From Polytrichum commune (Eukaryota > Streptophyta > Polytrichopsida > Polytrichales > Polytrichaceae), in contig OX485805.1 in the NCBI GenBank assembly GCA_950295325.1, positions 434,501-498,500 on the forward strand: a stretch of 64,000 nucleotides of DNA, in the 5' to 3' direction. Shown piece by piece: positions 6,951 through 63,940 of this stretch. Numbering within the stretch: position 1 is the first letter of the stretch; the number at the start of each line of letters is the position of its first letter. The notes below the pieces were generated by a model, which saw nothing but the letters and a program-made list of their open reading frames with translations, was not told where the DNA came from and did no database searches. A program made the translations under genes and the position numbers.

Positions 6951-6983
6951 GTTGTAGTGTGCTTGATAGGAGAATTCAAATTC

Positions 6984-15856: not shown

Positions 15857-15947
15857 CTACATGACAAAACAAGAATATAAGAAAACCAAGAAAACGAGCA
15901 AGAAATGACATTAAGGAGAGGTGCAAAGTGGAGGATAGATGTATTAC

Positions 15948-19047: not shown

Positions 19048-19102
19048 TTCCCAAAGCTCCTACTTATGCACTTAACAAAACACATTTCCCCCCCCCCCCC
19101 CC

Positions 19103-19785
19103 GCAGCTTCAGACCTCCATATCTTCCACGTGTGGTCTCCGAAACTAACAATCAACCACTCTATCGTCATCTACGTGAAATGTAGATGCCGATGGACACC
19201 TCACTTGCCCTATTTGGGCAAAAATCAAGGAAGTTATGCCTGTTTAAACATTCGCAGTCCCGGGAGCCACTCCCAGGGGACTGCTGATCGAGGGCACTAA
19301 AAGGAGGCCTCGGATCCGAGGCCTCATTTTCAAACTAGTGTACATACTCAAAAACAAGCAAAGTGCCTCATTCATACAAGCTATACGTTGAATCAAAAAA
19401 CCTCAAGTGGCCTCGGCTGAGAGGCCTCGGATCTGAGGGCTCACACACAAAGTAATTTACGTACTCCAAACCAACCATAGTGCCTCATCCGTACACTAGT
19501 TTTGGAACACATAAAAGAGGCCTCGGATCCGAGGCCTCTTCTCCTAGCTCCTACATATGCACTCAACAAAACACATTTCCCCCCCCCCCCGGCAGCTTCA
19601 GACCTCCATATCTTCCACATGTGGTCTCCGAATCTAACAATCAACCACTTTATCGTCATCTACGTGAAATGTAGATACCGATGGACACCTCACTTGCCCC
19701 ATTTGGGCAGACATCAAGGAAGTTCTGCCTGTTTAAACATTCGCAGTCCCGGGAGCCACTCCCTGCGGACTGCTGATCGAGGGCA
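19103..19785. repeat. Two copies of a ~190-bp dispersed unit at the satellite edge
   Basis: Units at about 19,103-19,290 and 19,592-19,785 are near identical and lie 492 bp apart, each starting after a C-run (19,088-19,102 and 19,579-19,590) and each ending at a palindrome-bearing satellite unit. They are related to 13,395-13,600. Satellite palindromes at about 19,305, 19,421 and 19,519 lie between the two, so the unit was amplified together with satellite DNA. Confidence 0.75.
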
Positions 19786-19791
19786 CTAAAA

Positions 19792-34700: not shown

Positions 34701-34895
34701 GATCCGAGGCCTCATTCACAAACTAGTTTACATCCTCAAAAACAAGCAAAGTGCCTCATTCATACAAGTTATACTTTGAATCAAAAAACCTCAAGTTGCC
34801 TCGGCCGAGAGGCCTCGGATCCGAGGCCTCACACACAAACTAGTTTACATACTCAGAACCAACCAAAGTGCCTCATAAAGACATGCCTAACCAAG
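19792..34895. repeat. Core satellite array, 96- and 117-bp units on a 22-bp palindrome
   Basis: About 15 kb of tandem units, roughly 145 by length. Each carries GAGGCCTCGGA plus its reverse complement, giving one 22-bp perfect palindrome with a central GGATCC. Type A is 96 bp (for example palindrome starts 20,102 and 20,198). Type B is 117 bp (20,198 to 20,315) and has a second short palindrome CTCGGCCGAG beside the main one. A rarer 89-bp junction unit occurs at 24.66, 24.84, 28.95, 29.23, 29.51 and 29.79 kb. Because 96 and 117 are multiples of three and one plus-strand frame lacks stops, long open frames arise (for example 30,585-34,991). I do not regard these as genes. Higher-order repeats are described in the findings. 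Confidence 0.97.
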
Positions 34896-35049
34896 TTACT
34901 TGTTTCATGGCCCACGGGCGTTCGCCCATGGGGCACAAGGCAGAGAGCAAGGAATCAGAAATGGAAGAAAGGTGACATTCCATTAGTTTGAGAAGTCAAG
35001 AACCTCACCTCTCTCAAAACCCTACCTCTCACATACTCAAACTTACACA

Positions 35050-36035
35050 AATATGAGGCCTCGGATCCGAGGCCTCTTCCCGTACCTCCTTCTTATGCAC
35101 TACACAAAACAAGACAAGACCGAGAGCAATTGATGTGCACATAACATTTTGATTTTTCAAGCACAAACCTACCCACAAATAAAAGGCCTCAGATCCGAGG
35201 CCTCTTCCTATGGCTCCCAGTTATGCACTACACAATAGAAGAAACGGCCGAGAGCAAGGAATCAAGAAAGCAAGAAAGTCGACATTCCATTAGGTTGAGA
35301 AATCAAGAACCTCGCCTCTCTCAAAACCCTACCTCTCACATACTCAAACTTACACAGATATGAGGCCTCGGATCCGAGGCCTCTTGCCCTAGCTCGTTCT
35401 TGTGCACTACACAAAACGAGCCAAGGCCGAGAGCAATTGATGTGCACATAACATTTTGATTTCTCAAGCACAAACCTACCCACAAATAAGAGGCCTCTTC
35501 CTATGGCTCCCACTTATGCACTACACAATAGAAGAAATGGCCGAGAGCAAGGAATCAAGAAAGCAAGAAAGTTGACCTTCCATTAGTTTGAGAAATCAAG
35601 AACCTCACCTCTCTCAAAACCCTACCTCTCACATACTCAAACTTACACAAATAAGAGGCCTCGGATCCGAGGCCTCTTCCCCTAGCTCCTTCTTATGCAC
35701 TACACAAAACAAGACAAGGCCGAGAGCAATTGATGTGCACATAACATTTTGATTTTTCAAGCACAAACCTACCCACAAATAAGAGGCCTTGGATCCGAGG
35801 CCTCTTCCTATGGCTCCCACTTATGCACTACACAATAGAAGAAATGGCCGAGAGCAAGGAATCAAGAAAGCAAGAAAGTCGACATTCCATTAGTTTGAGA
35901 AATCAAGAACCTCGCCTCTCTCAAAACCCTACCTTTCACATACTCAAACTTACACAAATATGAGGTCTCGGATCCGAGGCCTCTTCCCCTAGCTCGTTCT
36001 TGTGCACTACACAAAACGAGACAAGGCCGAGATCA
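35050..36035. repeat. Right-edge satellite subarray with ~305-bp higher-order unit
   Basis: The palindrome recurs near 35,054, 35,183, 35,361, 35,657, 35,786 and 35,965, alternating between two spacer types. A longer unit that includes 'gagaaatcaagaacctc' and 'ctctcaaaaccctacctctc' repeats about every 305 bp. One copy near 35,490 has lost its left arm and central part. Spacer text resembles the left-edge subarray (18.1-19.0 kb) more than the core, as expected if the core expanded inside an older array. Confidence 0.85.
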
Positions 36036-36221
36036 ACATGATGTGCACATAACCTTTTGATTTTTCAAGCACAAACATACCTTTCCTGACATGTTCCTAA
36101 ACCCAAATCAAGACAAGGCCGAAAGCAAGTCAAGCTGATATTTCAAATACTATGAGAAATCAAGGTGATAGAAAGCAAAAACGTTGGCGAACATAGCTTG
36201 GCCGAGATCCCGACACCTTAC

Positions 36222-37990: not shown

Positions 37991-38496
37991 AAGATAATTT
38001 GGCTTGGGCCTAAGTATTTCATTAGCTCTAATTAGTCAAACTACTAGGGGGGTTGTAGTTAGGATAATCCTTTTAGGATTGATAGACCATGATAGATTAT
38101 TGCATGCCATCTTGGCTTTAGGTAGAGTTGGATTTACTAGGAAAGTAGAAGTGTGTGGGACTTTCAAATGTGTGGATGGTTACCCATTGAAGCAAGTGTT
38201 TTTAAACACTCGTACCTTTGGTTGGAATATAATACGTGCACAATCAATGGGAACTGTGGAGGATCCTAGCAAGGACAAGATAAAGGAAGTAAAAATCAAG
38301 AAGTCTAGAGGGATCTCTTTAAGGGCATGCGTGGCCAAGGCCGCGGGTTGGACCCTTGGAAAATCGAATTCCACTACGAGCAACGATGCTCACAATAATA
38401 AAGCAAAGGAGTTAAGATGAAGTTAGTGCCTTGAACATGAGAGCCATATAGCAATTCATGTTATGGTATTAGGAATTGAATGTGATTCTCAAAGCC

Positions 38497-41400
38497 ATCA
38501 CCCGGACTAGGACGCCTAAGGGTGGTGGATTTGGCCTCACATGGGTTAAGTAAGGGAAGGGGCCTCGGGGTTTAAGTGTTTGAATTGGAACCTATCGTGT
38601 TGGTTTAGGGGGTGAGGGTTTAGTGGATAGGATAAGGTCCTATTATGTAGGAGAGGGGTAAGGGGTTAAGCTCTCTCGGGTTTGGTGTGTGGCTCTCTCT
38701 CTCTTTGAGGTTGAGCTCGGAGCTGCTGGTTTGATTGAGCTCGAAGCTGCTAGCTCGGGAGTTGCTGGTTCGATTGAGCTCGGAGCTGCTGGGAGGCTGC
38801 TGGTTGAGGCTTGAACTCCAAATGCTGGACCGGTTATGGGAAGGGTCTAGGAGTATTAATGTGGGAGTCCAAAAATCCACGGAAATCCGGATTGACTTCC
38901 TAACCGGATTAATATCCGGATAATACCCTAGTATTGGCCTTACAGTAGGGTTTCCTAGGATAGTTTAGTTGTTATAGGAAATAAGGTTCCAGGCATCCGC
39001 CTTACGCGTTAAAATGGTTAAAACGGATAATTTGGCCGGACCGGAACTTAATCCAGGGAGACCGTTTTTAAACGGTCCGGACTGAAACGGTCCGGTTCGG
39101 AGCATCCGGTCTGGAAAACGGTTACACCGGACCCGAAACGGTTACGGAGGAAGCCATTACGGACCCAGAACCGTTAGAGGGAGAGGGAGAGAGAAAGTAC
39201 TTAAAGGGAATTCTCTCCTTCTCTGAGCCATTTGCGCAAGCGGCATTGTCGAGAGGACGAGTGGTGAGCTATTTTTCGAGTCACCAGCAACTGGGTTGCT
39301 GGGATTCCTTAGTGATTAGCGGGTAGAGCTCCGGGAGGAAGAAGCCGGGGATTGTTAGAGGATTAAGGGTGCGAAGCAAAATGCCGGAAACACGGGAGGG
39401 AGATGAGAGGGAGCAGGTTCCAATTCCCGTGAAACCGGTATCGCCTGCCACTCTGAAAAGGGATTCGGAGCTGAAGGAGCTCATCGAGGACCTTAACCGG
39501 ATGGGTTGCGAGGGGTTACTCGCCAAACCTTGGAATCCTAGGGCGGAGGCCACATTGCGGGAGTTTCTGTTTGAGAGGGGAAATCAGTGGATCCGGACAA
39601 TGAGGCAGGAGCCGGAGAAGTGGACGCTGGAAATATGGGCTGGAGTCTACGGGTTTCCGAAGGGAAAGGGCGAGGGCTAGGCTAGCCGCAGGGATAGTTA
39701 CTACGTAGGAAAGTTCAGGACGGACCTGGATCCTAAGGACGGATTCCATCCCGGAAATTGCCGAAACCCTAGGGAGAGGAGGGTTATAGAGTTTATTCTC
39801 CCCATCCTTAGTCCGGAAAAGCCCAAGCAGCTTAGCATTACCATGGCCAACACCCTGTTTGGGGCCATATCCGGAACCCGGCCTGTAAATTGGGGTAGGT
39901 TAATTCAGGAATATGTAGAAAAATCCATCCCCCACATTGGCCGGAAACCCTCTTTTCTTTCCCCTTACATCCTCCACCTCTACCAACATTATGGCTGCAT
40001 CAACAAAGAAGAAGAGGACATGCTGACGATAGCAGAGGACAAGGTGGTGTACAAGATCACTCCGGAAGTCGAAGTTCCGGAAACCGGAACTGAGGATTCC
40101 AGCGACACGGTTGTTCCGGAACCACCTCCGGTTTCGTCCCCTGCGAGGGTCTGGAAACCCACCTCACCCCCATGCCGACAAGAAGCAGGGCCCAGCCGAG
40201 AAGTCCCCTGGAAGGACATCGATCTCTCCACTTTTGAGCTTCCGGAAGCCCCCTTCAAGCGCTTCCGGGACGAGTTGACGGAAATCCAGAACCAGTATTT
40301 CCGGATGGAGCACATCACTCGCGGGGTGAACAAGGCCTTAGGAAATTGTGGACCCGGAAATATCCTCCGGGAATTGGCCAAGCGGACGGACCGGAAACAC
40401 GTGGAGGCCCTGGAGACAGAGAAGGTGCAGCTAGCGGCACAAGTGGCCGCTATGACCCGGGAGCTCGCCCAGAAGAGCGAGGAGATCCGGAAGTTCCAGG
40501 CGGAACATGCCGTGGTTCTGAGCCGGGTCCGGGAGTTAGTGGGCCATCCGGGAGAAATCGTCAACAAGGCACACCTCTACGACCAGCTGATGGAGTCAGC
40601 GGATCCGTCTTCCGCCCGGCAAACGCTCCCTATCCTGGTAAAGTACTCTCGCACCATGAAGGACTTGCTCAAGGAGATTCAGAAGTTGCTGCCGGGTGGT
40701 ACCCCCAGGCGGATGCTCTATCCGGGTCCACCCGGATCTCCGACGGGTACTTTGTACGAAGTTATTGGGGAGGTGGAACTGGTTCCGGCCTCACAGGCAG
40801 GTGCAGGGCCCCGTTAGCCAGCCGGGACTTCCCATCCACCGGAATCCGGAAGAGTTCCGGAACGGGCCCGCTCATCCTTGGTTCGCCCGAACGCCGGAGA
40901 GGACCAGAACTCCGGAAAGGAGGAGGACACCGGATCGGGCTAAGACTCCGGATAGGGGTAAGGCACTGGTGGCGTAGGTGTCACCCGTTCCTACTCTTGA
41001 CTGCATGATAGTGGAGCTGTGGGCTCCTCCACCCTCACATGCGATGTCCGCTAGGGACCCCCGGACGGCTTCCGTCTCTTGTGGCCGGAACAGGGAACGG
41101 CCCGCTGGGAGTGACCCTTCACCTAGCCAGAGCTCTCGGAAGGAGAAGAAGGTTTCCGGAACGGCGCGATCCGGATCGGGTGACGGATCAGGGGAGGATC
41201 CGGACGTGGCGGGAGATTCCGAGGAGGAGATCGCTCCCTCCCCAAACATGAGGAGGGTATTTACAAGACTTCAGGAGCGACGACTTCTGACCCCCGGAGG
41301 AGGCTCTTCTGCCATCAGCGGGCCCGCAAGTGAATCCAAGGACGGAACAGCGCCGAAAAAGCATCGCACCACTTAGCTTAGATTTAGGTAGATTAGATGT

Positions 41401-42836
41401 AGGTAGCTCAGAGTTAGGTAGGCAGAGGTTAGGAATCCCTTTTTGGGCTTTGGCAGAACTGGGGATTCAAATTTTTGTCAGCGTGAAAAGCGGATCGAGA
41501 TCCGGAAATTCCGTGAAGGACGCGTTTCCGGATTTCTCGCTGCTTGGGGTTTCTGGGCGGCCGCCTGGGCCGCCACCAGTAGTTAGGGATTATGGCCTCT
41601 ACTGAAGGCGGAATAAGGAGCTGGAGAAGGGTTCCCTTCTTCATTGTTGTTTTGCTACTCCACACTCAATAAAACTCTAGGATTCTCCATCCCTTCTGAT
41701 TTGTTTTGTGCACGGACGGATTGGGTGAATGTTGCGGTTCTAGAGGGATTGGATGAATAGGGAGTACGGATAGGACAAGGGAGAAGAAACCCAGATCAGA
41801 TCCGACTACGGCACCATAGCTCCTTTTTTAGTGTAGTGGGAAGGAACCTCATTGTTCCGGATGCCTGGATAACATCCATGTGAGATAGCCGTCGTTAGGA
41901 CTGGGTAATGTCCGGAAGGGATCCGGGCTTACGCCGTCCAACCTTCTGAAGAGGTCTCACAGTCTCTGGGCGGGGTGGTCCGGAAAGTGGTACGGGTCAC
42001 CCAATTATCCCGGATTAATAGAACTACGGATACCTCTTAACCTTCATGTCGTTGTAGTTCCGGGACACCATCCGGACTCGCTGTGTGACTTGCTAGGAAA
42101 GATTAGGCCGATCCAGACTAGTTGTGAGCGAGATCCGGATTCTGGACATACGGGACGGCTTCACCGGATGAACCAAATCACCATTGGAAGTAGGATATAG
42201 GTGAATAAGGTATTGAGTAAAGAATTATATACGGATAAGATTTAAGTAGAGTGGTTCAATCCGGAAGGCAAGTCCCGGATCAAGGACTTCCAAAAGACTA
42301 TCCGGATCATGAAAGCCGATCCGGCCGGTGGTCGAATTTCAAGCAGGAAAAGAGGTTTCCTGACATCCTACACTTCACAAAATCCCTGGACGATACTCGG
42401 ATCATCCGGACAAACCGGATTAGGCATTGAAGAACGCCTATCCGGAACTTTTGGTGTTCGTGTGCTCCCACAATTAAGGTCACCTTATATGGTGGCTAGC
42501 TAATTAGAAAAAGGGGGGATGATTAAACTAGGGACTTAATTCATTAGTGAATTAAGGGGGGGGGGGCTAAAGTGCAAGAGGGTGGCATAAGGGAATAAGC
42601 TTTTGGTAAGGATTTGAGTGTTGGGTTGTGAATTAGTGTAGGAAGAAGGGAATAAATAGAGAAGAGCATTTTTTAATGCTTGTACTCGTATTATGGAATA
42701 AATTGGTGTGCAAGAGTTGATGGGAAATGTAATGGATTTTTACGAAGTTGGGAAGAGGGAGTTATGTGAACATGAATGTGATCCCCATGCCCTCACCCGG
42801 ACTAGGACGCATAAGGGTGGGTGGTTTGGCCTCACA
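38497..42836 (+). mobile_element. CCGGA-rich non-autonomous LTR element (LARD/TR-GAG-like)
   Basis: Both ends carry a related block: cacccggactaggacgc followed by taagggtgg and ending ggcctcaca, at 38,497-38,541 and 42,792-42,836. I take these as the 3' ends of the two LTRs, whose outer limits I cannot fix. TGGGTTAAGTAAGG follows the left block at once and could be a primer-binding site. Purine tracts near 42,509 and 42,551 are candidates for the polypurine tract. Between about 38.9 and 42.5 kb the word CCGGA or TCCGG is extremely frequent, unlike the surroundings. The only gene is a decayed gag-like frame, and no RT or integrase is seen. Element limits are therefore approximate. Confidence 0.5.
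39381..41376 (+). pseudogene. Decayed gag-like protein of the CCGGA-rich element
   Basis: One frame begins at the ATG 39,381 (residues MPETREGD), runs to a TAG at 39,678-39,680 and continues in the same frame without another stop to 40,817. The coherent continuation (RTPERTRTPERRRTPDR repeats) is in another frame, so a frameshift lies near 40,810. A second TAG lies near 40,975 and the frame ends at 41,376 with PKKHRTT. The middle part (residues from 39,843) has a compact folded segment with YILHLYQHYGC, then Pro/Glu-rich sequence and a coiled coil (40,380-40,560). The tail is charged and Ser-rich. The layout fits a retrotransposon gag without zinc knuckles. I know no exact family. Two stops and one frameshift mean it is not expressed as a full protein. 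Confidence 0.5.
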
Positions 42837-51641: not shown

Positions 51642-51645
51642 GCAA

Positions 51646-51978
51646 TGTCACGGTATGCGGCGTCGAAAGCCGCACCATATCCGTTGGGTTTCATCCATCT
51701 AGATTTGGATGGATGAATCTAGATGTGGAGAGGAAGGCTCCTAAGTGAGGAGCCTCCTCCTTGGCTTGGCATTCTTGCCAAGTCAAGTCTTGTGAGTTAG
51801 TGTGTGGAGAGAGCTTGTGTGAGGTGTAGATTGCATGATTTTGCAATAAATCTTGAGTTCTTCTTCCCCTACTTACACTCTTGGATTCTCCCTTGGTGGA
51901 GTGAGAGATAGCTTGATTAATTTGTGTACATTTGAAGAGATTTAGAGCTATTGTGAGTGTTCTACTCTCTTCCTTCTC
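51646..51978 (+). repeat. 5' LTR, R-U5-like part only
   Basis: Starts TGTCACGGTATGCGG and ends CTTCCTTCTC. It contains AATAAA at 51,845-51,850, a polyadenylation signal expected within R. It differs from the 3' copy at two positions in 333. Unlike the 3' copy it is not preceded by the 108-bp U3-like block. TGGCAAGAATGC at 51,982 is a weak candidate for the primer-binding site. I cannot assign its tRNA. Confidence 0.85.
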
Positions 51979-53482
51979 ACTTGGCAAGAATGCTTGATTC
52001 CTTCTCTTTTCTTCAAATCTTGAGCTACAACATTCAAGCAAGAGTGTGAGGACAAGTGGTGGCGGGATTGTGGAGTGGAGAACGACAAACATCGCGGATT
52101 AGCGGAGCAACAAGAAGAAAAATGTGTGCTTGTGGAGTTTACACATCATTGTGAATTGTGGTGAGAAATCTCTAAATACTACACGGAATTCTTGCCATGA
52201 GTTGCCCACAAGCATGAATTTGTGAAGTGAAAGTTGTGGGGACATTCTTGATCCTCAAAAAGGGATCAAGTTTTGAAAAATAAAAATAAAATAAAAACAA
52301 ATACTTGTTGTCGCTGCTGCTGCTGTCCCTGCTACTGCTGTTGTCCCTGGTATAGTTGCTGCTGGCAAACTTGCTGCCGTGCCCAGCGGCTGTCTGCGGC
52401 TCGCGGCGACTGTTTGCGGCTCGCGGCGGCTGGCTGCGGCTCGCGGCGGCAGTAGGCCAGAGCGGCAGACTACAGGCCAGGGCAAGCAGACAGCAAGCCA
52501 GACCATCCAGGCTGCAGGCTAGAAGAGGGAGCCCGAGGAATGATTCCGGAGATAGAGCCTCAGCGGCTGCCACATCCAAGGAAGGTAGCAGGCGCACACA
52601 TTACCCGATTCCGTTGCTAACGGAGGTAGATTTTTATTTTGTTTTATTTTGTTTTAATTAATTAATACATTAATGAATTAAAACCGGATTTTATTTATTT
52701 ATTTATTTAAATAATTAAAAAACCGGACTTTTTATTATTTATTTATTTATTTCATGTTACCTTTCAACTTCTCATCTTTCCTTCTCTCTCTAAGAAGTCA
52801 ATTTCTAGGGGATTAAGAAATATACTTGAGATTTCGTTTGGGGGTTGTGTTGCACGAAATTTCTGAGGAGGATGTCATTGGAGATTGGATGGCATATGGG
52901 ATTTCCGTTCGGCTTAGAATAAATTATTATTAGGGCCGAATTGTGTTTGTCAACACATATTCCCGACATTGTTGTGAAGAGGGATTTCTAGGTAGTAGTG
53001 GGGAGATGAGAGATGTGCATTGGTGCCAATTTCTTTTCTTAAGCAACAGGGGCTCTTCATTTTGACCACCAACTGCAGGCGGGTGCCAGTTGGTTGCGGT
53101 CGTTTTCAATTTTTGCTTGAATGTTGTTTTGGGGAAGAGGATCCAGTGCTGTACTTGCATTGTTTCTTGTATTTTGTTTTGGTACCTTCCCCTGTGGCGG
53201 ACTGTAGTGCTGGAGTGTTCTAGCACTGCCCCATTTTGTGTAATCCTAGATTGTGATAGGGTACTGTGGAGGTGAGGTCGGATTAATGACCGACGGGACC
53301 TTTGTTTGTGCACCAAGTGGGCGGTGCTTGTTTTCACTTGTGGTGAGGCTGGGTTAATGACCAGCAGACCATAAGTTTTGGTGGTGATTGCAGGTGCAGG
53401 TTGCCTTTGACCATTTTTCTCTTTGTAACTGGATACTAATTCATTTGGGTTGTTGATTCGGTGACCATCCCATTGTGGGTTT

Positions 53483-55607
53483 ATGGTTACAACTCGTACT
53501 CAACATTATCGTTTTCCGTCCCCAGGAGCATCGGAAGGTCATCCCTCGGACCTCTCGGACGTTGAACCAGTGGTAGCACCCAACGAGGCTTTTCAGCCTA
53601 CTTCGGCGTGGGGGACTATCACTCGGTCGCACGTCCTGTGGGTGGGAACCTTTGACGATATGGAGGAGGAGACTAGGGGAGGGATACGGGACCGGTTTTC
53701 CGGTCAAGCAGGGACCATTTCTCTGCAAGACTGGAAAATCCGGTTTCGTACGTGGATGCGAGAGAAACGCCAACGCAATACTAATTTTAACGATTGGTAT
53801 GCGTTCGAGCTTCTGCCTCAGCATTTGGAGCATGAAGCTCTCCAAACTTATGAGCAGTGGACGGACACTCATTGGATGGAGCTGCGCCAGGTGGAGCGGT
53901 ACTGGGAGACTCGGGTTGAGTTGGTATCCGCATTGAAGGAAGGCGCAGCTTCCAGTTTCATGGCCGTCCCTGAGGTTAAATCGGAGGTGCCGGATGGAGT
54001 ATTTGTGGTGGATGTGGAGGGAGTTTTTCCTATCAATCCCACGGCTCAGGGCCAAGCTCCCGCAGCGGCGAGTACCTCGAGCCCCATTCTTCCACTGTCA
54101 CGTTATGCCCAGGCTACCCAGGCGGCATTAGCTTCTTTAGGAGCTCCGCCGGGTTTTGATCCTCTACATGAATTCCAACTCCATTTGGAGAAGGAATATG
54201 GAGGCTTCCGCCGCGATCAAATGCAGCGTATACAGGACTTTCGACGGGAGAAAGATGACACACCTCGTACCATGTACACGAGGTTGGCGAGGTTTGCGAG
54301 GGAATCTGGAGGTGTTTTCGCCGAAAGCCAGTTGGTAAAGGTGTTTTTGTCCAAGATTGACAAACGCCTCCTTGACTTGGCGCTGCCCAAGATCATCATG
54401 GATTATGGTGGTCGGGCGACACTCGCAGAGGCATTCGCCATTGTGGAGCAGTGTGATCGTGCGTTGTGTCAACACGATGCCACTGATTTGGTGTCTCTGC
54501 TAGTAGATTCTAGCAAATCCCGAAGAGTTCCGGTTGCGGCTGCAGGATTGGCGGAGGCCGAGGTAGACAAGACCATGTATTGTTGGTCTTGTGGGCAGGC
54601 CGGCCATGCTAAGAAGGACTGCCCTTCGAAGCAAAGGCAAGCCCAGACCGTCACTACTCCGAAGCGGAAACCATTTGTTCCCGCTAAGGGCTCGGCGAAG
54701 GGGACGACAGGTAATCAGTTACCCAAGCAGTTGAAGTGTTCTCATTGCGGGCGGAACAATCACGCAGTAGAGAACTGCTTTGTTCTCCATCCTGAGAAAC
54801 GTCCTTCTTCCGACCGGGAGAAGACGTTGGAGGCGAAGATTGGAGCCATGGAGGAGAGGTTCAAAAGCTTGGCGTCATCCGGCCAAATCTTGGCCTCACC
54901 GTCTTCCTCCGGAGCTCAGGCTAGTTCTTCCACTCCGGATTACTATATGTTTGGAGCCTCGGGCGAGATGGTGAGTTCCGCGGCCGTGACACGTGCTCAA
55001 GCCGTGTCACAATCCATACCTTCGACCACAAATGAATATGTGGCAAGCTCGCGAGCTCGGGACAATGCGCCCGCGGACCAAATTGGTCAGGCACGACTAC
55101 CATTATCTTTTGGATTGGCCGATGCCGTCCAATCTGTCAGTGGTCGTCATCCGAACGATGAGGTTTCACATTCAACGACCAATGTGGCGCACACGTTGGC
55201 ATCCAAGGTGTTGCACACACCTTTGTTCACGGCCATGGAGTGGTCATCGCCAGAGTTCCAACCTGCTAAGATTTTTCACTTAGCAGGTAGGATTTTGGAA
55301 GGGAAGGCATCCTTACCTTCTCTGACCGTGGCTCAAGCCACTACGGACATTCCTGCTTCCGAAGATCCTGAGGATGTGGCCAAATGGCGAGCGAGACTTG
55401 CGGCAGAGACCAATGCGTCTTTTGACGCACACGCCTCAGATGACAAGGCACCGACCACGTCTTATGACTACCCAGTATCCGCGGGTGCAGCCTATCTGTC
55501 TGATGTCGCTGCTAGACCTGTCTGCGAACGCCGCGGCATTCGACCCGGCGTTGTGCGTATGGTGAATGATACCGGAATTTTGGTGGTCAGTCGTACTGGG
55601 AGCAACG
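53483..55607 (+). CDS. gag: Gag polyprotein with two CCHC zinc knuckles (interrupted at its 3' end)
   Basis: Capsid-like region followed by nucleocapsid. The ATG at 53,483 is the first in the frame. A retrotransposon gag domain covers roughly residues 50-300 (WKIRFRTWMREKRQ; later FRREKDDTPRTMYTRLARFA). Two CCHC knuckles follow: CWSCGQAGHAKKDC near residue 366 and CSHCGRNNHAVENC near 419. These bind the RNA genome. The remaining 250 residues are Ser/Ala-rich and may link to the protease. The native frame is broken at 55,608 by a nested element, which adds two codons and a stop at 55,610-55,612. Without it, gag would run straight on into protease, so the ancestral product was a gag-pro-methyltransferase polyprotein. 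Confidence 0.9.
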
Positions 55608-57324
55608 TGTGAGGCCAAACCCCCCACCCTTAAGCGTCCGTAGTCCGAGTAGTGGGTTTGGGCTCACATTCCTCCGCGGTATTGGATTTGGACTTGGATG
55701 AGTCCATAGTGCAAGGTTCACCCTTCAAGTGGTCTTGGATTTAACTAGCTCCTTCATAAACCCAGCTCCTTCATAAACCCAGCTTCTTAGCTTCTAACTA
55801 AACAAACCCAGCTCCTTCATAAACCCAGCTCCTTCATGAACCCAGCTCCTTAGCTTCTAACTAAACAAACTCAGGTCCTTCATAAACCCAGCTCTTTACT
55901 TTCTAACTAAACAAACCCAGCTCCTTCATAAACCCAGCTCTTTACTTTCTAACTAAACAAACCCAGCTCCTTCATAAACCCAGCTCCTTCATGAACCCAG
56001 CTCCTTAGCTTCTAACTAAACAAACCCAGGTCCTTCATAAACCCAGCTCTTTACTTTCTAACTAAACAAACCCAGCTCCTTCATAAACCCAGCTCCTTCA
56101 TGAACCCACAACTTTGTAGTTGTAATCCCCAACTACCTCACTAATTATTCAAGCCCTTAACTAATCTTCCTACCTAATTTCCCTAATTCTACTAACAACC
56201 CCTTTCTAATCACACAATTCTTCTCTAATCCTAAAATCCTAAAATCCTAGAGAGGAGAGGGGGAGAGAGAATTTCCTAACTTCACTAAGACTAACTAATT
56301 CACACAAGTATATTTTTGCACTCATCACAACATCAAGTGCTCAACTCTTAAACATGGAACTTGCAACCACGTGTATTCAAAACATGAACTTTAAGTACCA
56401 CAAATTGGAATCATGAATTAACTTTAAAATCCTTCACGTCAACACTAATTCTACCAAGAGGTCAAGCCCTCTTCAAGGCTAACAAGCCTTGGCTCTCAAA
56501 CTAAAAACTAAGCACACACATGTGCTCCAATATGGCTTCCCACACCCACACTTATAACTCGTGGGGTGCCTTGGAGCACAAAGGAAAGAGAGGATGAGTG
56601 AGGGAAGAATGAGGGATTATATAGTAAGCTTGAGGGGGTGAGCACCCTCAAGGCTCACGATAAGCCCTTGAGATTTCCTCCTACTTAGTAGGCGCCAATC
56701 CTATCTTCTAAGCCTTCCTCCCTCAAATGATCAACAAGGATCCTAATTCGAACATTTAACTAGCCTTGGCTTTCTACCTACCACACTTTACCAAACTTGG
56801 GATGCTTCAACCCAAACTTAGCCTCCTTCGCTTTCCGCCGCCATAACTTTCTCCCCTTACTTTCCCAAATCGTCGCTCACCACTTAATTCAAACCACGAT
56901 GCTTAACTCGTGATTTGATTGGTGCTTTGAGAATTTGCTTATCCTCCACCTTGCATTCTTCCTTGGGCCTTCCCCATTAAGTGGCCATGATGAGGTGGTC
57001 CACTTGTGCGCTCCATGTGATCCTCCATTCATCCCAATTCGAATGCACTTGCCTCTTGAGTCACTTTGGTTGTCTCCATCCATTTGTACTAGCCTACTCA
57101 CTAACTACTCAATCCAAGTTCTCCTTACCTATCCTCATTCACTCAAATCCTTCCGAAGGTAAAAACACAATAACAACTCACATCCTAGCCTCTTACAACA
57201 TGGTACTTCTAAGGCTAACATTTCACTCTTTTTATATTTTTGTGAAGTAACATGCTACTTCAAAGTGCATCAACTAACGTTTCAAGGGTCTAAGACTAAA
57301 TGTGGGCACCCTTTTGGGCTCACA
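55608..57324 (-). mobile_element. Nested solo-LTR-like element, 1,717 bp
   Basis: Begins TGTGAGGCC and ends GGGCTCACA, so it has TG...CA ends with a TGTGAG/CTCACA inverted repeat. It is flanked by a perfect 5-bp duplication CAACG (55,603-55,607 and 57,325-57,329). There is no internal coding region. On the minus strand a CTATATAATC box near 56,615 could be a TATA box, which supports LTR orientation on that strand. Its plus-strand left end resembles, in reverse complement, the LTR ends at 38.5 and 42.8 kb, so it may belong to a related LTR family. It contains the tandem repeat listed separately. I read it as one LTR left after recombination. Confidence 0.75.
55750..56110. repeat. Short tandem repeat inside the nested LTR
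   Basis: Many copies of 'aacccagctccttcat(a/g)' alternate with 'agcttctaactaaacaaac', giving a compound array of about 360 bp in which a larger unit of roughly 60-120 bp is repeated with small changes. Confidence 0.9.
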
Positions 57325-57329
57325 CAACG

Positions 57330-59290
57330 CTACTCGGGTTGCTCCCCGTTGTGTGATGATGGATTCAGGGGCACAGCCAGTTATGATCGGCAAGAGGCTT
57401 GCCCAAGAGTTGAGGTTGACGGCCGAGGATTTGGCTCCCTGTCCATTCACCATTGTCACATCCATTGGTCACGTGGAGCAAGCCATGGGTTATACTCGAG
57501 AGCCATTACAGCTTAGCTTCCGAGTGAAGCCTGGAGATTCACCCGCACCTCTTCTTCTTAGGTGTGCGGTGACGGATGCGACCAACTATGACATTTTAGT
57601 TGGTCAGCAAGCACTTTACCCTCTTGGTTTTGGTTTGGACAACTGGACTGAAGAGGCGTGGATCCGACCAGGTTGGTCGGCTGGGGATGGCCGCAGGGAA
57701 CTTATTCCCGTTGCTTTCGCGGCGGCCGCGACCATAGCACCATTATCTATGGTTTTTGGATGTGGTGCTATGGTGGACACATTGCCTTATGGTTCCGCAT
57801 TGTTGGAGGAGTCATTGGCATTCATGGGGAGTACAGACGATCAACGGGATATAACACCTAAGAATGCATTGGTGCGCCATCCCAAGGATTCCCTTCGTCC
57901 TTGGCGTGATTCCGCCGAGTTATTTCGGAGGTGCGAGGATATTGTTCACTCTCTCACTCCTAGAACACCGGTTATGCCGGGTGTCCTCTCGGCATTGGCA
58001 CATCCCATTTTATGGCAGCCGCCAGACGCGGGAATTACTTTGGTGGAACTGTTTGGGGGCATCGGCACAGGCTTAGCGGCCGTATTGGAGGCTGGCCTCA
58101 CGGTTAGACGGTATGTCTATGTGGACAACTCTCAAGTGTCCACCTGTGTGGCTCGTCACCATCTTCACCAATTGATGGTATTGTACCCCCAGCAGTTATC
58201 TCCAACTGCCATTCGTGGGTGTTTTTCACGTCTCCCTCGTGATGTGACACTCATCAGTGAGGCCGATTTACGACACTTAGGTCCGGTGGATATGGTGATT
58301 GCGGGATGGCCATGCCAGGGCCATTCACGTGCTGGAGCCGGCCGAGGTCTAGAGGATCCCAGGTCTAATTTATTTTGGGACCTCATCCGCCTCATGCAGT
58401 GGTGGTTTTCCCACCAACATACCCTGCCAGGGTATATCTTCGAGAATGTACCATTGTTGGGAGACTCTCGGGACAAGGTGTTGAAAGGCGATTATTATGT
58501 TCGTCAACACCTTGGAGATCCCATTTTTGTGGATGCCGCGAGCATTGGTTCTTATGCCCACCGGCCTCGGTGGATTTGGACCAACCTCGCACCGTCATCT
58601 ATTTTAGCTGCAGCATTTTCTGCAGTGTCTCCACATTTGGATCAAAAGGTGGATGACATCTTGGAGCCAAACCGGACTTCTTTGCCGGTTGTTCGAGATG
58701 ATTTACCCCCGTTGGCATTGGTCAACAAAATCGGGGCACCGCGGCGGGCATTTCCCACATTTATGACGTTTCCACAGTCATTCGCTTTTCGCGATAGGGG
58801 GCCGGGTATGGTGTGGGATGTTCACACCAAAACCCACACCGAACCATTGGCTGATGAACGGGAGCGTGCCATGGGATTCCGCACTGGCACCACCGCAGCT
58901 CCCGGCCTTTCTGAGGGCCAACGACGCTTCGTGTTGGGCCAAGCTATGGATCTTCATACCATGGTGTGGACTGTTGCTTTATGCCTTTCATTGCAAAGGC
59001 ATCGTGGTGACCAGTGGTTGTCTCTGGGGGCAGAGGACTCTGGTCAGGGGGCACAGCGGTCCACACCCATGGAGGAGGGAATTCACGCCATGGTTGGAGA
59101 AGTCGAACGAATTTTTCAATTCAAGCAGCATGTGATGGAGGAGCTTCGAGCTCAACATGTTTACACCGCTTCGGTTTCTTCGCCTCCGGTGGTGGCTTCA
59201 TCATCACATATTGGTGGTGATGAAGAACTGTCAGACTCTAGTGCTAGCACCGATACTGGGGGCATAGTTAATGCCCCCTCCTCTCATTAG
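57330..59290 (+). CDS. Aspartic protease fused to C5 cytosine DNA methyltransferase (gag-pol part)
   Basis: The frame is open from 57,302, but the first codons lie in the nested element, so the native part starts at 57,330 with no start codon of its own. The protease has the catalytic MDSGA (Asp codon 57,362-57,364) and a later NYDILVG strand. From about 58,030 a full C5 methyltransferase follows: motif I ELFGGIGTGL (58,046), motif IV GWPCQGHS with catalytic Cys codon 58,313-58,315, motif VI FENV (58,439), an AHRPRWIW segment at motif VIII, and C-terminal ERAMGF and RRFVLGQAMDLH at motifs IX-X. All catalytic residues I can check are present. It transfers methyl groups from SAM to cytosine C5. 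DNMT3/DRM-like kinship is likely but not tested. A Ser-rich tail leads to a UAG at 59,288. Confidence 0.92.
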
Positions 59291-59296
59291 CAATTA
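59288..59296 (+). promoter_or_regulatory. Probable stop-codon readthrough site, UAG-CAA-UUA
   Basis: The stop that ends the methyltransferase frame is TAG followed directly by CAA TTA, which fits the tobamovirus-type leaky context UAG-CAR-YYA exactly. The downstream RT frame is the same frame and stays open from the codon after the stop, so readthrough would yield the pol polyprotein at a low ratio to gag. Confidence 0.65.
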
Positions 59297-62200
59297 GAGT
59301 CCATGCCAGCACCAGGTGGCTCTCTTCTAGTGGAAAGGGAGACCACAGAGTTTGATGATTGGCCACTTGAATTAGGCCCTCGTCTCACTGGTGCTGAGGC
59401 ACGGAAGGTACGGGCATTTATTCGCTCGTACCGTAGATGTTTTGCTTTTAGCCTTCAAGATCTTGAAGGTTATAAAGGAAAACCCATCCACATTCAGTTG
59501 GAGGACGACCATCCCATTTTTCGGAGACCTTACAGGCTCAGTGTTTCCGAGCGGATTGGCGTTCAGGCTCGTTGCCGAGAGCTCTTGGCAGCAGGGCTAA
59601 TCGAACTTTCCAACGGGGAGTATGCTTGTGCTACGGTTATGCCATCGAAGAAGGATATCTTTGGCAATTGGACGGAGAAGCGGATGTGTGGGGATTACCG
59701 TCCAGTTAATCGGAAGACCAAGTCGGATCGGTATCCCATGCCGATCCCGGAGGAGTTGTTCGATGCCATCGGATTTTCTCGGGTCTTTAGCACATTGGAC
59801 TTGAGATCCGGATATCACCAACTTCCATTACTTACGGGAGATCGGGTGAAAACCGCATTTTGGGGAGTTGATCAAGATGGGAAAGATCAACTTTATCATT
59901 GGAAGTTTCTTCCATTTGGCCTAAAGAATGCACCAGCTGAGTTTCAACGGGTGATGGATCAGGTTCTCTCTGGCTTGCCCTTTGCTCGGTGTTACATAGA
60001 CGATGTGATCATCTTCAGCACAACACCACAGGAGCATGTGAGGCATTTGCAAGCCGTTTTTGAACGGTTGCAGCGGTGGGGACTGCGCTTGCACCACGGC
60101 AAGTGCAAGTTTTTCCATGACCGGTTGGCATATCTGGGGCATATGATTGTTCCAGGAGGTCTTGGGGTACAACAAGCTAAGGTGGACGCCTTGCAGAAGA
60201 TTCCGGCACCGGTTGATGTGCCGAGACTTCGTGCTTTCTTGGGCTTGGCGAATTACTATCGGCGATTCGTCAAGAACTTTAGCTTGATCGCCAAGCCTCT
60301 CACCATTCTTACGAGCAAGGACCAACCGTGGACTTGGGGTCGTGAGCAACAACAGGCGTTTGAGACATTGAAGCAGAAACTGGGTACGGCTCCAGTGCTT
60401 CGACGTCCAGATGTCTCCAAATCTTTCCAGTTGCATACAGATTGGAGTTCATTGGGTTTGGGAGCAGTTCTTACTCAGAAAGATGACGTTGGCCGGGAGT
60501 ATGTTGTTGCTTACGCGTCGCGAAGCAACAACACGGCGGAGGCCAATTATTCGTCCTATGAGGGAGAAGCATTGGCGGCGGTGTGGGCTATTGCCCATTT
60601 CCGGCCATATCTTTATGGTCAAAACTTTACTTTGGTGACTGACCATCAGCCGTTACGGTGGCTCATGGAGTCGGATAAGCTTACTGGCAAGCTTGCCAGG
60701 TGGGCTTTGTTGCTCCAGGAGTATGACTTTGAGGTGGTACACCGTGCTGGGATTACCAACATGGATGCAGATGGACTCTCACGCAATCCAAGTCCTTCGG
60801 ATGAGGACTTGACCGGGGCCAGGTGGCATGGAGATTGTGATCGAGAGGCGGTTCCAGGTTGGCACGCGGCTGCCTACCTCACTTTATTTTCTGGTGCATC
60901 TGTTGAGATTCCGATACAGGGCTCGGATGATGAGACTGATCGGCCTCAAGCTATTGCGGATATATGGGAGGATCTTCCCGTATTGCATAAGCTTCAACAT
61001 GGTACCTTTCCTTTGTCTATTTCGGCAATGGAAAAAGATAGGATTGGACATCGAATAACAAGGTTCCGTTGGGAGAACGGTTTGTTATTTCGATTGTGGC
61101 CGGATGGGACAAGGCGTATTGTTCCTAGGCCGGATCAGAGGGCCTCCTTGGTGCGACAAGTGCACGAGGAACTTGGCCATTTTGGCATACGCAGGACACA
61201 TTCGATGTTGCGTGGCCAATATTGGTGGACTGGCATGTATCAGCAGGTGGCTGCATATGTCGGGAGGTGTGAAGTTTGTGACCGGGTCAGGTCTAGCTTT
61301 AACACCTTATCACCTCAGTTACAGCCCTTACCTATCATGGGATTAGGCTACCGTTGGTCGCTGGACTTTGCAGGGCCGTTGGTGGTTACACCACGTGGAG
61401 CAAAGTACGTTTTGGTGATGGTCGAGCATTTTAGCAAGTGGATTGAGCTTGTTGCTCTACCCCAGAACTCTGCAGAGTTGGCCGCGGCCGCCTTTTTGGA
61501 TCGTGTGTTAGCACGTTTTGGAGCACCAGCTGAGGTGTTGACGGACCAAGGGAGGGAGTTCCTTGGTGCTTTTGAGGAGTTGTGCACTAAAGCTCTCATA
61601 GATCACCGCACCACCTCTCGGGATCATCCGGAGGCAGATGGCTTGGCTGAACGGGTTGTTCAGACAACCAAGCGTGGCTTGAGGAAGTATGGATTACTTC
61701 GGGGAAGCCACCGGGATTGGGACCTTATGTTGCCATGGATTGCTATGGGCTATCGATTTAGTAGGCAGGCCTCTTTGGCATCCTACAGCCCGTATCAATT
61801 ATTGTATGGACGTGAGCCTATACTCCCGAGTTCTATTCGGGAAAAACTAGCTCCTGTTGTGAACTTGGATGACCCAGACCTTTGGGCAGAGTGTTTGCAG
61901 GAGCGGGCTCAATTCTTCCAGAGGGCCATGCCTATGGCCATGGAGAATTTGTCCATTGCTCAGCACCGTGACACATTGCGTTATGCACGCATTCGTAGTG
62001 GTGCTTACCGGCCTCAGTTGCGGAGATTTCGGCAACGGGATTATGTTTATCTTCAACGTGAGGCGCCTACGACATTGGATGTCAGGGCGGGGCGCACTAT
62101 CCTTCGGGTGAAGGAGGTGTTGCCAAGTGGTTTGTTGTTGTTGGAAGGCAAGGATGGCAGGGAATGTCGCGAGCATTCCAAAAACTGTGCCCCATGTCAT

Positions 62201-62437
62201 CTACCTATTGAGGGTACAGTTCATCCTGAACTGGCCGTCGTACCAGAGGGTCTTCCATGTTTTGTGTGTGGAGACAAGAAGGGAGCAGCTACTATGCTCT
62301 TGTGTGATCAGTGTCAACGCGGTTGGCACATGGCATGCTTGCGGCCACCCTTGACTTCTCTACCATCTGGACAGTGGAGTTGTCCTCGCTGTCGAGGATC
62401 TTCGGTACTTGGTGCTTCCACCAATCGTACTCAATGA
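59291..62437 (+). CDS. pol: Pol: reverse transcriptase, RNase H, integrase and C-terminal PHD finger
   Basis: Same frame as the upstream methyltransferase; the first ATG is at 59,303 but synthesis by readthrough at 59,288 is more likely. RT: KKDIFGNWTEKRMCGDYRPVN, STLDLRSGYHQ, LPFGLKNAPAEFQRVMD and the YIDD active site near 59,994. RNase H of the Ty3 type: LHTDWSSLGLGAVL, EGEALAAVWAI and TDHQPLRWL. Integrase: HHCC zinc domain (HEELGHFG...CEVCDRVR) and a DDE core with SLDFAGPL, LTDQGREF and HPEADGLAERVVQ. After the integrase, at 62,258-62,395, is a PHD finger with C4HC3 spacing (CFVC, CDQC, WHMAC, CPRC) in place of the chromodomain usual in plant chromoviruses. No stops or frameshifts, so the enzyme part looks intact. 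Confidence 0.95.
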   Translation, partial: QLESMPAPGGSLLVERETTEFDDWPLELGPRLTGAEARKVRAFIRSYRRCFAFSLQDLEGYKGKPIHIQLEDDHPIFRRPYRLSVSERIGVQARCRELLAAGLIELSNGEYACATVMPSKKDIFGNWTEKRMCGDYRPVNRKTKSDRYPMPIPEELFDAIGFSRVFSTLDLRSGYHQLPLLTGDRVKTAFWGVDQDGKDQLYHWKFLPFGLKNAPAEFQRVMDQVLSGLPFARCYIDDVIIFSTTPQEHVRHLQAVFERLQRWGLRLHHGKCKFFHDRLAYLGHMIVPGGLGVQQAKVDALQKIPAPVDVPRLRAFLGLANYYRRFVKNFSLIAKPLTILTSKDQPWTWGREQQQAFETLKQKLGTAPVLRRPDVSKSFQLHTDWSSLGLGAVLTQKDDVGREYVVAYASRSNNTAEANYSSYEGEALAAVWAIAHFRPYLYGQNFTLVTDHQPLRWLMESDKLTGKLARWALLLQEYDFEVVHRAGITNMDADGLSRNPSPSDEDLTGARWHGDCDREAVPGWHAAAYLTLFSGASVEIPIQGSDDETDRPQAIADIWEDLPVLHKLQHGTFPLSISAMEKDRIGHRITRFRWENGLLFRLWPDGTRRIVPRPDQRASLVRQVHEELGHFGIRRTHSMLRGQYWWTGMYQQVAAYVGRCEVCDRVRSSFNTLSPQLQPLPIMGLGYRWSLDFAGPLVVTPRGAKYVLVMVEHFSKWIELVALPQNSAELAAAAFLDRVLARFGAPAEVLTDQGREFLGAFEELCTKALIDHRTTSRDHPEADGLAERVVQTTKRGLRKYGLLRGSHRDWDLMLPWIAMGYRFSRQASLASYSPYQLLYGREPILPSSIREKLAPVVNLDDPDLWAECLQERAQFFQRAMPMAMENLSIAQHRDTLRYARIRSGAYRPQLRRFRQRDYVYLQREAPTTLDVRAGRTILRVKEVLPSGLLLLEGKDGRECREHSKNCAPCHLPIEGTVHPELAVVPEGLPCFVCGDKKGAATMLLCDQCQRGWHMACLRPPLTSLPSGQWSCPRCRGSSVLGASTNRTQ

Positions 62438-62710
62438 TCCTGTGTGGTTTTCATCATCTTGTGCTTGTCCAAATGGAAAATGAAGAGTTATGGCTTAGAG
62501 ACGCAATCGACATGAGGCGGTGGATTTAATTCTTTGGGATCTGATGGCCAAACATCAGAGGCGATTAAGGATGGGGCTCACCTTGCACCCAGCCTACAGT
62601 TCCTTGGAATAACGTTTACCACACTAGTTAGTTGCGGAGCAATCTTTCATGATCCATGCCCTTTAGATTGGCATTGGTCCTAGCTGCTTGGCGGGACTCC
62701 ATAGTCAGCT

Positions 62711-62721
62711 GAGGGGGGGCA
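62711..62721 (+). other. Polypurine tract
   Basis: gaggggggg followed by CA lies immediately before TGTCGAGG at 62,722. This is the expected primer for plus-strand synthesis and marks the start of U3. Confidence 0.75.
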
Positions 62722-62829
62722 TGTCGAGGTGTGTTGTTTATGTGTGACTTTGCTATGTTTTAGTTTTGTTTGTTAGTGGTGGTTGGTACTCGAGCTGCAG
62801 TGACACACGATCGCTATTTACACGACAGC
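62722..62829 (+). repeat. 108-bp U3-like block, first copy
   Basis: Starts TGTCGAGGTGTG right after the polypurine tract and ends ACGACAGC. It is identical to 63,163-63,270. Within it TGTCG and CGACA form a short inverted repeat over 106 bp. It leads directly into the 333-bp R-U5-like copy, so U3 plus R-U5 would make a 441-bp LTR. Confidence 0.85.
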
Positions 62830-63162
62830 TGTCACGGTATGCGGCGTCGAAAACCGCACCATATCCGTTGGGTTTCATCCATCTAGATTTGGATGGATGA
62901 ATCTAGATGTGGAGAGGAAGGCTCCTAAGTGAGGAGCCTCCTCCTTGGCTTGGCATTCTTGCCAAGTCAAGTCTTGTGAGTTAGTGTGTGGAGAGAGCTT
63001 GTGTGAGGTGTAGATTGCATGATTTTGCAATAAATCTTGAATTCTTCTTCCCCTACTTACACTCTTGGATTCTCCCTTGGTGGAGTGAGAGATAGCTTGA
63101 TTAATTTGTGTACATTTGAAGAGATTTAGAGCTATTGTGAGTGTTCTACTCTCTTCCTTCTC
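62830..63162 (+). repeat. 3' LTR, R-U5-like part
   Basis: 333 bp that match the 5' copy except at two positions. It is followed not by flanking DNA but by a second copy of the 108-bp U3-like block. Confidence 0.9.
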
Positions 63163-63270
63163 TGTCGAGGTGTGTTGTTTATGTGTGACTTTGCTATGTT
63201 TTAGTTTTGTTTGTTAGTGGTGGTTGGTACTCGAGCTGCAGTGACACACGATCGCTATTTACACGACAGC
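63163..63270 (+). repeat. 108-bp U3-like block, second copy
   Basis: An exact copy of 62,722-62,829. It ends in CGACA followed by GCAA, the possible target duplication also seen at 51,642-51,645. The GC of that word is also the end of the repeated block, so the duplication could be chance or microhomology. Confidence 0.85.
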
Positions 63271-63625
63271 AATTCCAATGAAATTAACAGAACCTATTTC
63301 TAAATTGGTTTCTAAAATCATGAAATTGAGTTTGCACTTCTGTGAATTCATCTTACCAGAGGAGTAAGTCAATGAGCAGTAATGTTACGAAGACAGTTCA
63401 GCAGACACTTTCTTACCTGATTTAGTTGTGGGAACCAGGAGCAATGACAAACACTCTCGAATAAGTACCTACTTACCTCATGTTAGGTGTGTGTTTGCAA
63501 GTGAAGTGCGCCCCTTGAGAAGAGAAAAGATTGAAGATGCTTCAAGCAGGATCCGAGTGAAAATGATCTGCACTTGAATCTCGACATTCCTTACTGACTG
63601 ACTGAGTGGGAAGCTTGAACCAGCC

Positions 63626-63911
63626 ATGGCGGAGGAGAGACGTGCGGTGCCCCTGGGCAAGAGGCCGTTAGACTTGTTCCTGGCCTCGTTTCTGCTCATG
63701 AACATTCCCGTGGTGCTGTTGATCGAGTCGCAGGTGCTGTTGCCCGCCTCCTTCTTCCCACAACCCCTCCTGGACGCCGTGCAATGGTATGTGCACTTCT
63801 CAGGCGACTATTTGGTGGGCGACAAGCCCGCCTTCTTGCAAGGCCTGGTCTTCGCCGAAGTCTTGTTTCAGTTGCCATTGCTTATCGCCAACTCCTACGC
63901 CTTCATCGCTG
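63626..63911 (+). CDS. First exon of TMEM97/sigma-2-receptor-like EXPERA protein (partial)
   Basis: The ATG at 63,626 opens a 95-codon exon that ends at a donor G/GTATGT at 63,912. The protein has a first hydrophobic span (DLFLASFLLMNIPVVLLIES), VLLPASFFPQPLLDAVQWY, then FLQGLVFAEVLFQLPLLIANSYAFIAG. The order and the E.LFQLP motif match the first half of TMEM97 (sigma-2 receptor) and other EXPERA-domain proteins, four-span ER membrane proteins linked to sterol handling in animals; the plant role is less clear. The exon is GC-richer than its surroundings. The rest of the gene lies beyond the window. The intron starts with C13 and a (CT)n run. Confidence 0.8.
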
Positions 63912-63940
63912 GTATGTCATCCATCCATCCATCAATCAAT

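Follow-up and report, generated by a model that had tools for sequence, protein, structure and literature searches.

What could a complete-looking cytosine DNA methyltransferase do inside a retrotransposon, and does the element that carries it also express and preserve it? The question is raised by a stretch of DNA of 64,000 nucleotides (the window), in which a preliminary description had placed a C5 methyltransferase (DNMT) between the protease and the reverse transcriptase (RT) of a retrotransposon. Pfam, a PDB sequence set and the motifs all locate the domain there, so that the description of a DNMT-bearing retrotransposon is confirmed, and the interpretation given with it is partly supported. 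The anatomy reported here goes further, with a leaky stop codon, split repeats with 4-bp duplications, predicted self-priming, a PHD finger and a nested insertion that breaks the window copy.

Domain order of the element

The element (51646-63268) is a Ty3/Gypsy-type retrotransposon that codes for gag, protease, a DNMT3-type methyltransferase, RT, RNase H, integrase and a C-terminal PHD finger (Table 1). The gag open frame (53465-55612) lies upstream of the DNMT frame (57278-59290, +), in which the protease motif MMDSGAQ precedes the methyltransferase; the gag and protease Pfam matches are weak and fall under the cut-offs. The frame 59291-62437 carries RVT_1, RNase H, the integrase zinc finger, rve and the PHD finger, and the order RT-RNase H-integrase is that of Gypsy (Pfam). 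Gag, protease and DNMT are in one frame, closed by UAG-CAA-UUA, and RT-RNase H-integrase-PHD follow in the same frame. The proposal that the DNMT is in the frame of the polyprotein holds in so far as DNMT and RT share a frame, with TAG-CAATTA between them; however, the polyprotein is not one open frame, since the TAG (59288-59290) stands before RT and the nested insertion interrupts gag-protease.

The chromodomain of chromoviruses was not detected after the integrase at E <= 0.1 (Pfam), and a PHD finger is there instead. Similarly, Pfam gave no phage-integrase match in the window element, which has an rve integrase in place of the tyrosine recombinase of DIRS elements. Rfam (gathering threshold) and tRNA scans of the 64-kb window yielded 0 matches.

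Judged from its sequence, the window copy is unlikely to make its polyprotein, because the nested insertion splits gag from protease. The insert is missing from other copies, its site being unbroken in 27 of the 30 loci most like the window's (the other three being the window itself and two loci that differ upstream) and in L173, a distant relative described below. The insert contains a 17/46-bp minisatellite (55747-56108). Its opening 63 nt match two stretches of the opposite strand at 83-84%, namely 38478-38540 and 42774-42835, where related insertions may lie.

Elsewhere in the window, an ~18-kb tandem satellite (18134-36081; 96/309/405-bp units and others) has long stretches open in one frame, and a single-frame gene (6906-10568) codes for a protein with numerous ankyrin repeats and a PGG domain at its C-terminus; ankyrin-PGG genes are typical of plants. 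The protein-like frames 17176-17754 and 14543-16152 (-), with no Pfam match, are possibly parts of an unclassified mobile element. An exon-like frame at 63628-63912, also with no Pfam match, presumably resembles a TMEM97-type membrane protein.

Table 1. Features of the element, with window coordinates
Feature	Position	Strand	Evidence or remark
Target-site duplication GCAA, left	51642..51645		Same 4-bp rule in 10/10 further copies, flanks compared by eye
Repeat A1, 333 bp, begins TGTC	51646..51978	+	2 differences of 333 from A2
Stretch of A1 complementary to primer site (predicted self-priming)	51769..51783	+	15-nt perfect complement; 0/2000 shuffles reach 14
Predicted primer-binding site, directly after A1	51979..51993	+	Complement of 9-15 nt in 10 further copies
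Gag part of polyprotein, zinc knuckle 54578-54628	53483..55607	+	ORF; zf-CCHC E 0.0017, below Pfam cut-off
Nested insertion TGTGAG...CTCACA, 1717 bp	55608..57324		Splits gag from protease; 5-bp duplication CAACG 55603-55607 / 57325-57329
Aspartic protease region, DSG from 57362, approximate ends	57330..57808	+	Pfam below cut-off: E 0.029 (window), 5.6e-4 (relative L173)
DNMT3-type C5 methyltransferase, approximate ends	58010..59047	+	Pfam, PDB sequence set, motifs, Foldseek
DNMT motif I	58046-58066	+	
DNMT catalytic Cys	58313-58315	+	
DNMT motif VI, ENV	58442-58450	+	
DNMT motif VIII	58559-58573	+	
TAG CAA TTA, leaky-stop context UAG CAR YYA	59288..59296	+	Sequence; consensus from passages of PMC2754532, PMC11166343
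Predicted RNA stem-loop, 9 nt past stop codon, possible readthrough stimulator	59300..59405	+	z -2.8 (window), -4.2 (L173)
Reverse transcriptase and RNase H	59672..60724	+	Pfam RVT_1 8.6e-30, RT_RNaseH 2.6e-37
Integrase, zinc-binding domain and rve core	61130..61630	+	Pfam Integrase_H2C2 5e-17, rve 4.2e-14
PHD finger, C-terminus	62258..62392	+	Pfam PHD 1.4e-10; best PDB relatives include CHD4, PHF12, KMT2D
Polypurine tract GAGGGGGGG, adjoins B1	62711..62719	+	Sequence
Repeat B1 (106 bp, ends GACA) plus GC	62722..62829	+	0 differences from B2
Repeat A2	62830..63162	+	Sequence comparison with A1
Repeat B2, right end of element	63163..63268	+	Identical to B1
Target-site duplication GCAA, right	63269..63272		Sequence

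The methyltransferase domain

The DNMT matched Pfam DNA_methylase with 43.7 bits (E 3.2e-11; cut-off 22), and its best match in the PDB sequence set was DNMT3A (E 4.2e-10). It had been described as complete, and it does look so: ELFGGIG, GWPCQ, FENV and HRPRW, which we take to be motifs I, IV, VI and VIII, and a C-terminal GF...LGQA stretch occur in canonical order. In a profile comparison with solved C5 methyltransferases, E values of 2e-11 for DNMT3, 1e-6 for DRM, 1e-5 for M.HaeIII, 9e-5 for M.HhaI and 8e-4 for DNMT2 were obtained, which places the domain closest to DNMT3 among them. For DNMT1/MET1 and CMT the profile gave no PDB match up to E 10, an absence that alone is not proof. Motifs I to X are collinear with those of DNMT3A, the C-terminal piece being a weak match, and hence are not in the rearranged order of DRM.

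The domain was modelled with AlphaFold2 (pTM 0.81; pLDDT 78.7, falling below 50 in parts of the probable target-recognition region). A Foldseek search with this model returned DNMT3 entries for all of the best 50 of 204 matches at E <= 0.001, and the alignment to the DNMT3 fold spans model residues 1-334, catalytic core and C-terminal motif included. In structural alignment ranked by VIA-align Z, DNMT3 and M.HhaI tie. The usual Glu of motif II, which is nearly invariant in the alignment examined, is replaced by Asp in the window element and in L173, and this change could weaken SAM binding. Three scans of viral contigs yielded no close relative; a wide-alignment scan gave 23-31% identity in the best 80 of 372 matches, and a phage collection (255 records) gave only matches of <60% identity.

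Family copies and selection

A one-off capture had been held out as the reading to adopt if all other family copies lacked the domain. When the element's own genome (407.8 Mb, 64 contigs) was searched with the DNMT (612 candidates, 109 scored), at least 109 matches were found, the window's included, all on contigs C1-C7 and 69-100% identical, and one-off capture is rejected. Four of these seven contigs are 44.7-77.9 Mb long, and the positions of the matches put the remaining three at 36.8 Mb or above; a set of seven chromosomes would suit Polytrichaceae mosses, so that the genome may be that of a land plant. By hand count, ~41 of the 109 listed matches have no stop in the domain. Loss of catalytic residues in all expressed copies had been named as an argument against function; each motif string is kept in 27 or 28 of the best 30 loci, which were ranked by likeness to the window and lean towards young copies. 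Twenty of these loci have no stop in the DNMT domain, and 12 combine this with all five motif strings. We conclude that the window element belongs to a young Ty3/Gypsy-type family with many copies.

A scan of genome contigs with the DNMT gave one outstanding match among the best 80 of 115, with 62% over the whole domain. This match, contig CADCWO010000201.1 (L173, 9285 bp), comes from a MAG labelled Synechococcales in a public species set; most plausibly it is a eukaryotic contig that strayed into a cyanobacterial bin. The RT-integrase protein also matches five other contigs of that MAG, which is probably contaminated with eukaryotic DNA. The first and last 127 bp of L173 are identical, and gag-protease-DNMT runs across the origin, followed by TAG-CAATCA and then by RT-RNase H-integrase-PHD. 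Its amino acid identity to the window element is 51% for gag (C-terminal 503 aligned codons), 69% for protease, ~64% for DNMT, 90% for RT-RNase H, 91% for integrase and 83% for PHD.

Among 19 stop-free family copies, the dN/dS of the DNMT was 0.28 (141/171 pairs within the dS and dN limits) and that of the RT start 0.10 (14/21 pairs, from the 7/19 copies with a stop-free RT start); these pairwise values include post-insertion decay, and the twentieth stop-free DNMT, L203, was left out for a 1-nt shift. Between the window element and L173, synonymous change has reached or nearly reached saturation and exceeds non-synonymous change in 10/10 segments compared, with pN 0.245 and pS 0.709 for DNMT, and pN 0.065 and pS 0.699 for RT-RNase H. 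GWPCQ, FENV and HRPRW are preserved in the DNMT of L173. These results indicate that the DNMT is under purifying selection, and less constrained than RT and integrase. A passenger DNMT, captured from the host's DNMT3 and carried along without a function, would agree with its faster evolution relative to RT and with the many copies that have stops. Such a passenger would not be expected to show constraint both among family copies and across two distant elements, nor the same in-frame placement before a leaky stop in the window element and L173, and the dN/dS of 0.28 disfavours it; we regard it as most improbable.

The DNMT regions of the 30 loci L174-L203 were also compared with the window for C/T differences. 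At CG, a C of the window was T in the copies at 119/3074 positions, against 61/2910 for the reverse, and at CHH there was no difference (276/10759 against 279/10962). The slight CG-to-TG excess in the copies may stem from host methylation of older copies. The same excess bears on the proposal of an action in trans, in which the DNMT would target the host genome or other copies and would dampen transposition or alter the host methylome, with the element limiting its own damage. Both ideas are raised in the passages of PMC5890265 drawn on here, and the stop-free matches in the listed 109 and the several young copies are in line with them; nevertheless, the excess is slight, host methylation would yield the same, and trans action appears unlikely to us.

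The stop codon between DNMT and RT

According to passages of PMC2754532 and PMC11166343, UAG-CAR-YYA is the type I readthrough context of tobacco mosaic virus, and the stop of the window element lies in exactly this context. It occurs at 3/5961 stop triplets of the window (both strands, all frames), the DNMT stop included. TAG-CAATTA follows the DNMT in 30/30 of the best loci (the window's included), at the identical place in 29 and shifted by 1 base, and thereby out of frame, in one; in 3 of these 29 another in-frame stop lies ahead of it. L173 has TAG-CAATCA at the matching place, despite the state of its synonymous sites. If TAG-CAATTA works as in tobacco mosaic virus, the DNMT should therefore be made together with Gag-protease and at the level of Gag, and RT only via readthrough, with RT-integrase-PHD at a lower level.

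Could the in-frame TAG instead have arisen by degeneration, or be an ordinary stop after which the RT frame is initiated on its own? An ATG 5 codons past the stop of the window might provide such a start, but it is present in the window only among six aligned sequences, the other five (four copies and L173) having GTG or ATA, and the context is common to the 30/30 loci and L173. On these grounds a degenerate stop was rejected as the main reading of the TAG, and either alternative to readthrough is very unlikely. The stem-loop predicted past the stop codon is only suggestive as a readthrough stimulator: across six sequences, 1/37 of its pairs has a two-sided change, and 10/37 are broken in at least one sequence.

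Repeats, target duplications and priming

The order of the repeats is A-coding-B-A-B in 9/11 copies (the window's and 8/10 further ones) and A-coding-B in the remaining 2/10; the ten further copies were picked for high identity or long open frames, and lean towards young, intact ones. The two short copies (C5:8705482-8714707 and C6:21817207-21827898) are flanked by 4-bp duplications as well, and their form is due either to B1-B2 recombination or to another type of integration product. As A1 and A2 differ at only 2 of 333 positions, the window copy is young. Exact 4-bp target duplications lie outside the TGTC...GACA ends in 11/11 copies (the window's and ten others, compared by eye), and such ends between exact duplications, together with the rve domain, point to a DDE integrase. 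DIRS retrotransposons are not known to have target duplications, unlike the 11/11 copies here.

Two accounts of the A-coding-B-A-B order were considered. An aberrant or recombined LTR arrangement was rejected, since 8/10 further copies are alike and have exact 4-bp duplications. Random opening of a two-LTR circle at the B/A palindrome is disfavoured, because it predicts A-B-A-coding-B equally often, and this order was seen in 0/9 split-repeat copies. The B/A junction GACAGCTGTC is preserved in L173, with a G-run upstream of it similar to the polypurine tract.

The first 15 nt past A1 are the perfect complement of A1 positions 124-138, and this predicts self-priming of reverse transcription by the 5' region of the element RNA. 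Tf1 is also among the self-priming elements. In L173, an inverted-repeat scan without shuffle control gave a 13-nt primer-site complement with other letters. A polypurine tract beside B1 and a primer site after A1 imply an LTR of the order B A, but the integrated ends are A...B, and this counts against the explanation that we favour below. Split repeats in combination with an rve integrase, 4-bp duplications and self-priming make the family a good test of repeat regeneration.

A possible role of the methyltransferase

Our best explanation joins the family structure, read from the sequences, to a series of predicted steps. Most ribosomes would halt at the UAG, so that the DNMT would be produced at the level of Gag and packaged in the particle, and RT-IN-PHD would be produced through readthrough. 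The 5' end of the element RNA would fold onto the site after A1, leading to self-primed reverse transcription. Inside the particle or just after, the DNMT would act on the cDNA of the element itself and methylate its cytosines, most likely at CG; new copies would thereby arrive already methylated, and the PHD finger may help to choose the chromatin for integration. Taken as a whole, we consider this explanation evenly poised between right and wrong. The full claim of a large, recently active land-plant Gypsy family that makes a de novo CG DNMT at Gag stoichiometry via a tobamovirus-like leaky stop, packages it, premethylates its self-primed cDNA and has its integrase steered by the PHD finger is possible, yet doubtful.

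In yeast, according to passages of PMC5890265, two SymbioDIRS enzymes methylate CG, and the SymbioLINE and KnitGypsy enzymes gave no methylation, a result that its authors call inconclusive; for SymbioLINE they propose RNA methylation. The failure of the Klebsormidium Gypsy DNMT in yeast counts against the best explanation, as do the Asp of motif II, the faster change of the DNMT relative to RT-RNase H, and the state of the best 30 copies, of which 12 combine a stop-free domain with all five motif strings, 3 have an earlier in-frame stop and one has the TAG out of frame. The DNMT might then be retained not for DNA methylation but for a role without catalysis or one directed at RNA (for instance, binding of nucleic acid in the particle, or RNA methylation): its placement at the level of Gag suits a structural or RNA-binding part, and the Asp, the Klebsormidium result and the RNA methylation suggested for SymbioLINE are in keeping with it. 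However, GWPCQ, FENV and HRPRW are kept in the distant L173, and the match of the modelled fold covers the catalytic core and the C-terminal motif; we find such a role rather improbable. If the cDNA is indeed premethylated, methylation would be part of the transposon replication cycle and not only of host defence. The family lends itself to study of the role of retrotransposon-borne DNMTs: its copies are numerous and several are young, the DNMT is predicted to be expressed with Gag and RT through readthrough, and methylation is clearly predicted to take place inside the particle.

Comparison with known systems

In 2019, de Mendoza reportedly described arthropod retrotransposons with a captured methyl-CpG binding domain. 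Like the window element these carry a captured methylation-related domain, but theirs binds methylation and does not write it.

The UAG CAR YYA context is common to the window stop and the leaky stop of tobacco mosaic virus (passages of PMC2754532 and PMC11166343); the window stop differs in that it sits between the methyltransferase and the reverse transcriptase of a retrotransposon, and in that its readthrough is predicted from sequence. 'UAG CAA' is absent from the first 300,000 of the 475,107 characters of PMC5009743. In self-priming Ty3/Gypsy elements of the Tcn1 clade (passages of PMC6317226), the primer site pairs with the 5' region of the element itself and not with a tRNA, as is predicted here. 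The likeness lies in this priming feature, and the window element differs by its split repeats and its DNMT. With plant and animal DNMT3 (passages of PMC6453930; human DNMT3A/B in PDB) the window DNMT shares the linear motif order, an HR.R.W-type motif VIII and the fold; it differs by PCQ (PCN in DNMT3A), by Asp at motif II, by its polyprotein setting and in that Pfam found no ADD or PWWP domain in the window element.

The 2018 precedent of retrotransposon-borne DNMTs named in the preliminary description (de Mendoza et al.) was traced to PMC5890265, which in the passages drawn on here describes DNMTs carried by DIRS and LINE elements of Symbiodinium and by a Gypsy family of Klebsormidium, under purifying selection, with fewer copies in K. 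nitens than in Symbiodinium. Passages of PMC12344493, citing the 2018 paper, place DNMT3 in retrotransposons of streptophytes and dinoflagellates and name Copia and DIRS. DNA-methylase transposons have been stated to be absent from land plants such as tracheophytes (PMC6338049), and if the host is a moss their known range widens to land plants. No land-plant case of a DNMT-bearing retrotransposon appeared in the titles and abstract openings of the literature searched, and no DNMT-bearing element in the passages of PMC9033089 and PMC9246332.

The dinoflagellate elements SymbioDIRS-Dnmt3 and SymbioLINE-Dnmt also bear a DNMT, and SymbioDIRS has split repeats in the order A-coding-B-A-B, as here; they are tyrosine recombinase or LINE elements (passages of PMC5890265), whereas the window element has an rve integrase and 4-bp duplications. 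Closer is KnitGypsy-Dnmt3 of Klebsormidium nitens, which by the same passages shares with the window element the Gypsy domain composition, a Pol region whose DNMT3-type domain is un-rearranged and under purifying selection, and DIRS-like repeats, in the order A-coding-B-A-B (Fig. 4 and Fig. 1 legends). The window family accordingly has the Gypsy order, the intronless in-frame DNMT3-type domain with its motifs and the DIRS-like split repeats of that kind. Compared by description, it appears to differ by the leaky UAG before RT, on which those passages are silent, the terminal PHD finger ('PHD' occurs 0 times in the main text of PMC5890265), the 4-bp duplications, self-priming and at least 109 DNMT matches. 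DNMT-bearing retrotransposons were thus already known, and the window family is notable among them for its leaky stop, PHD finger, predicted self-priming and integrase-type duplications.
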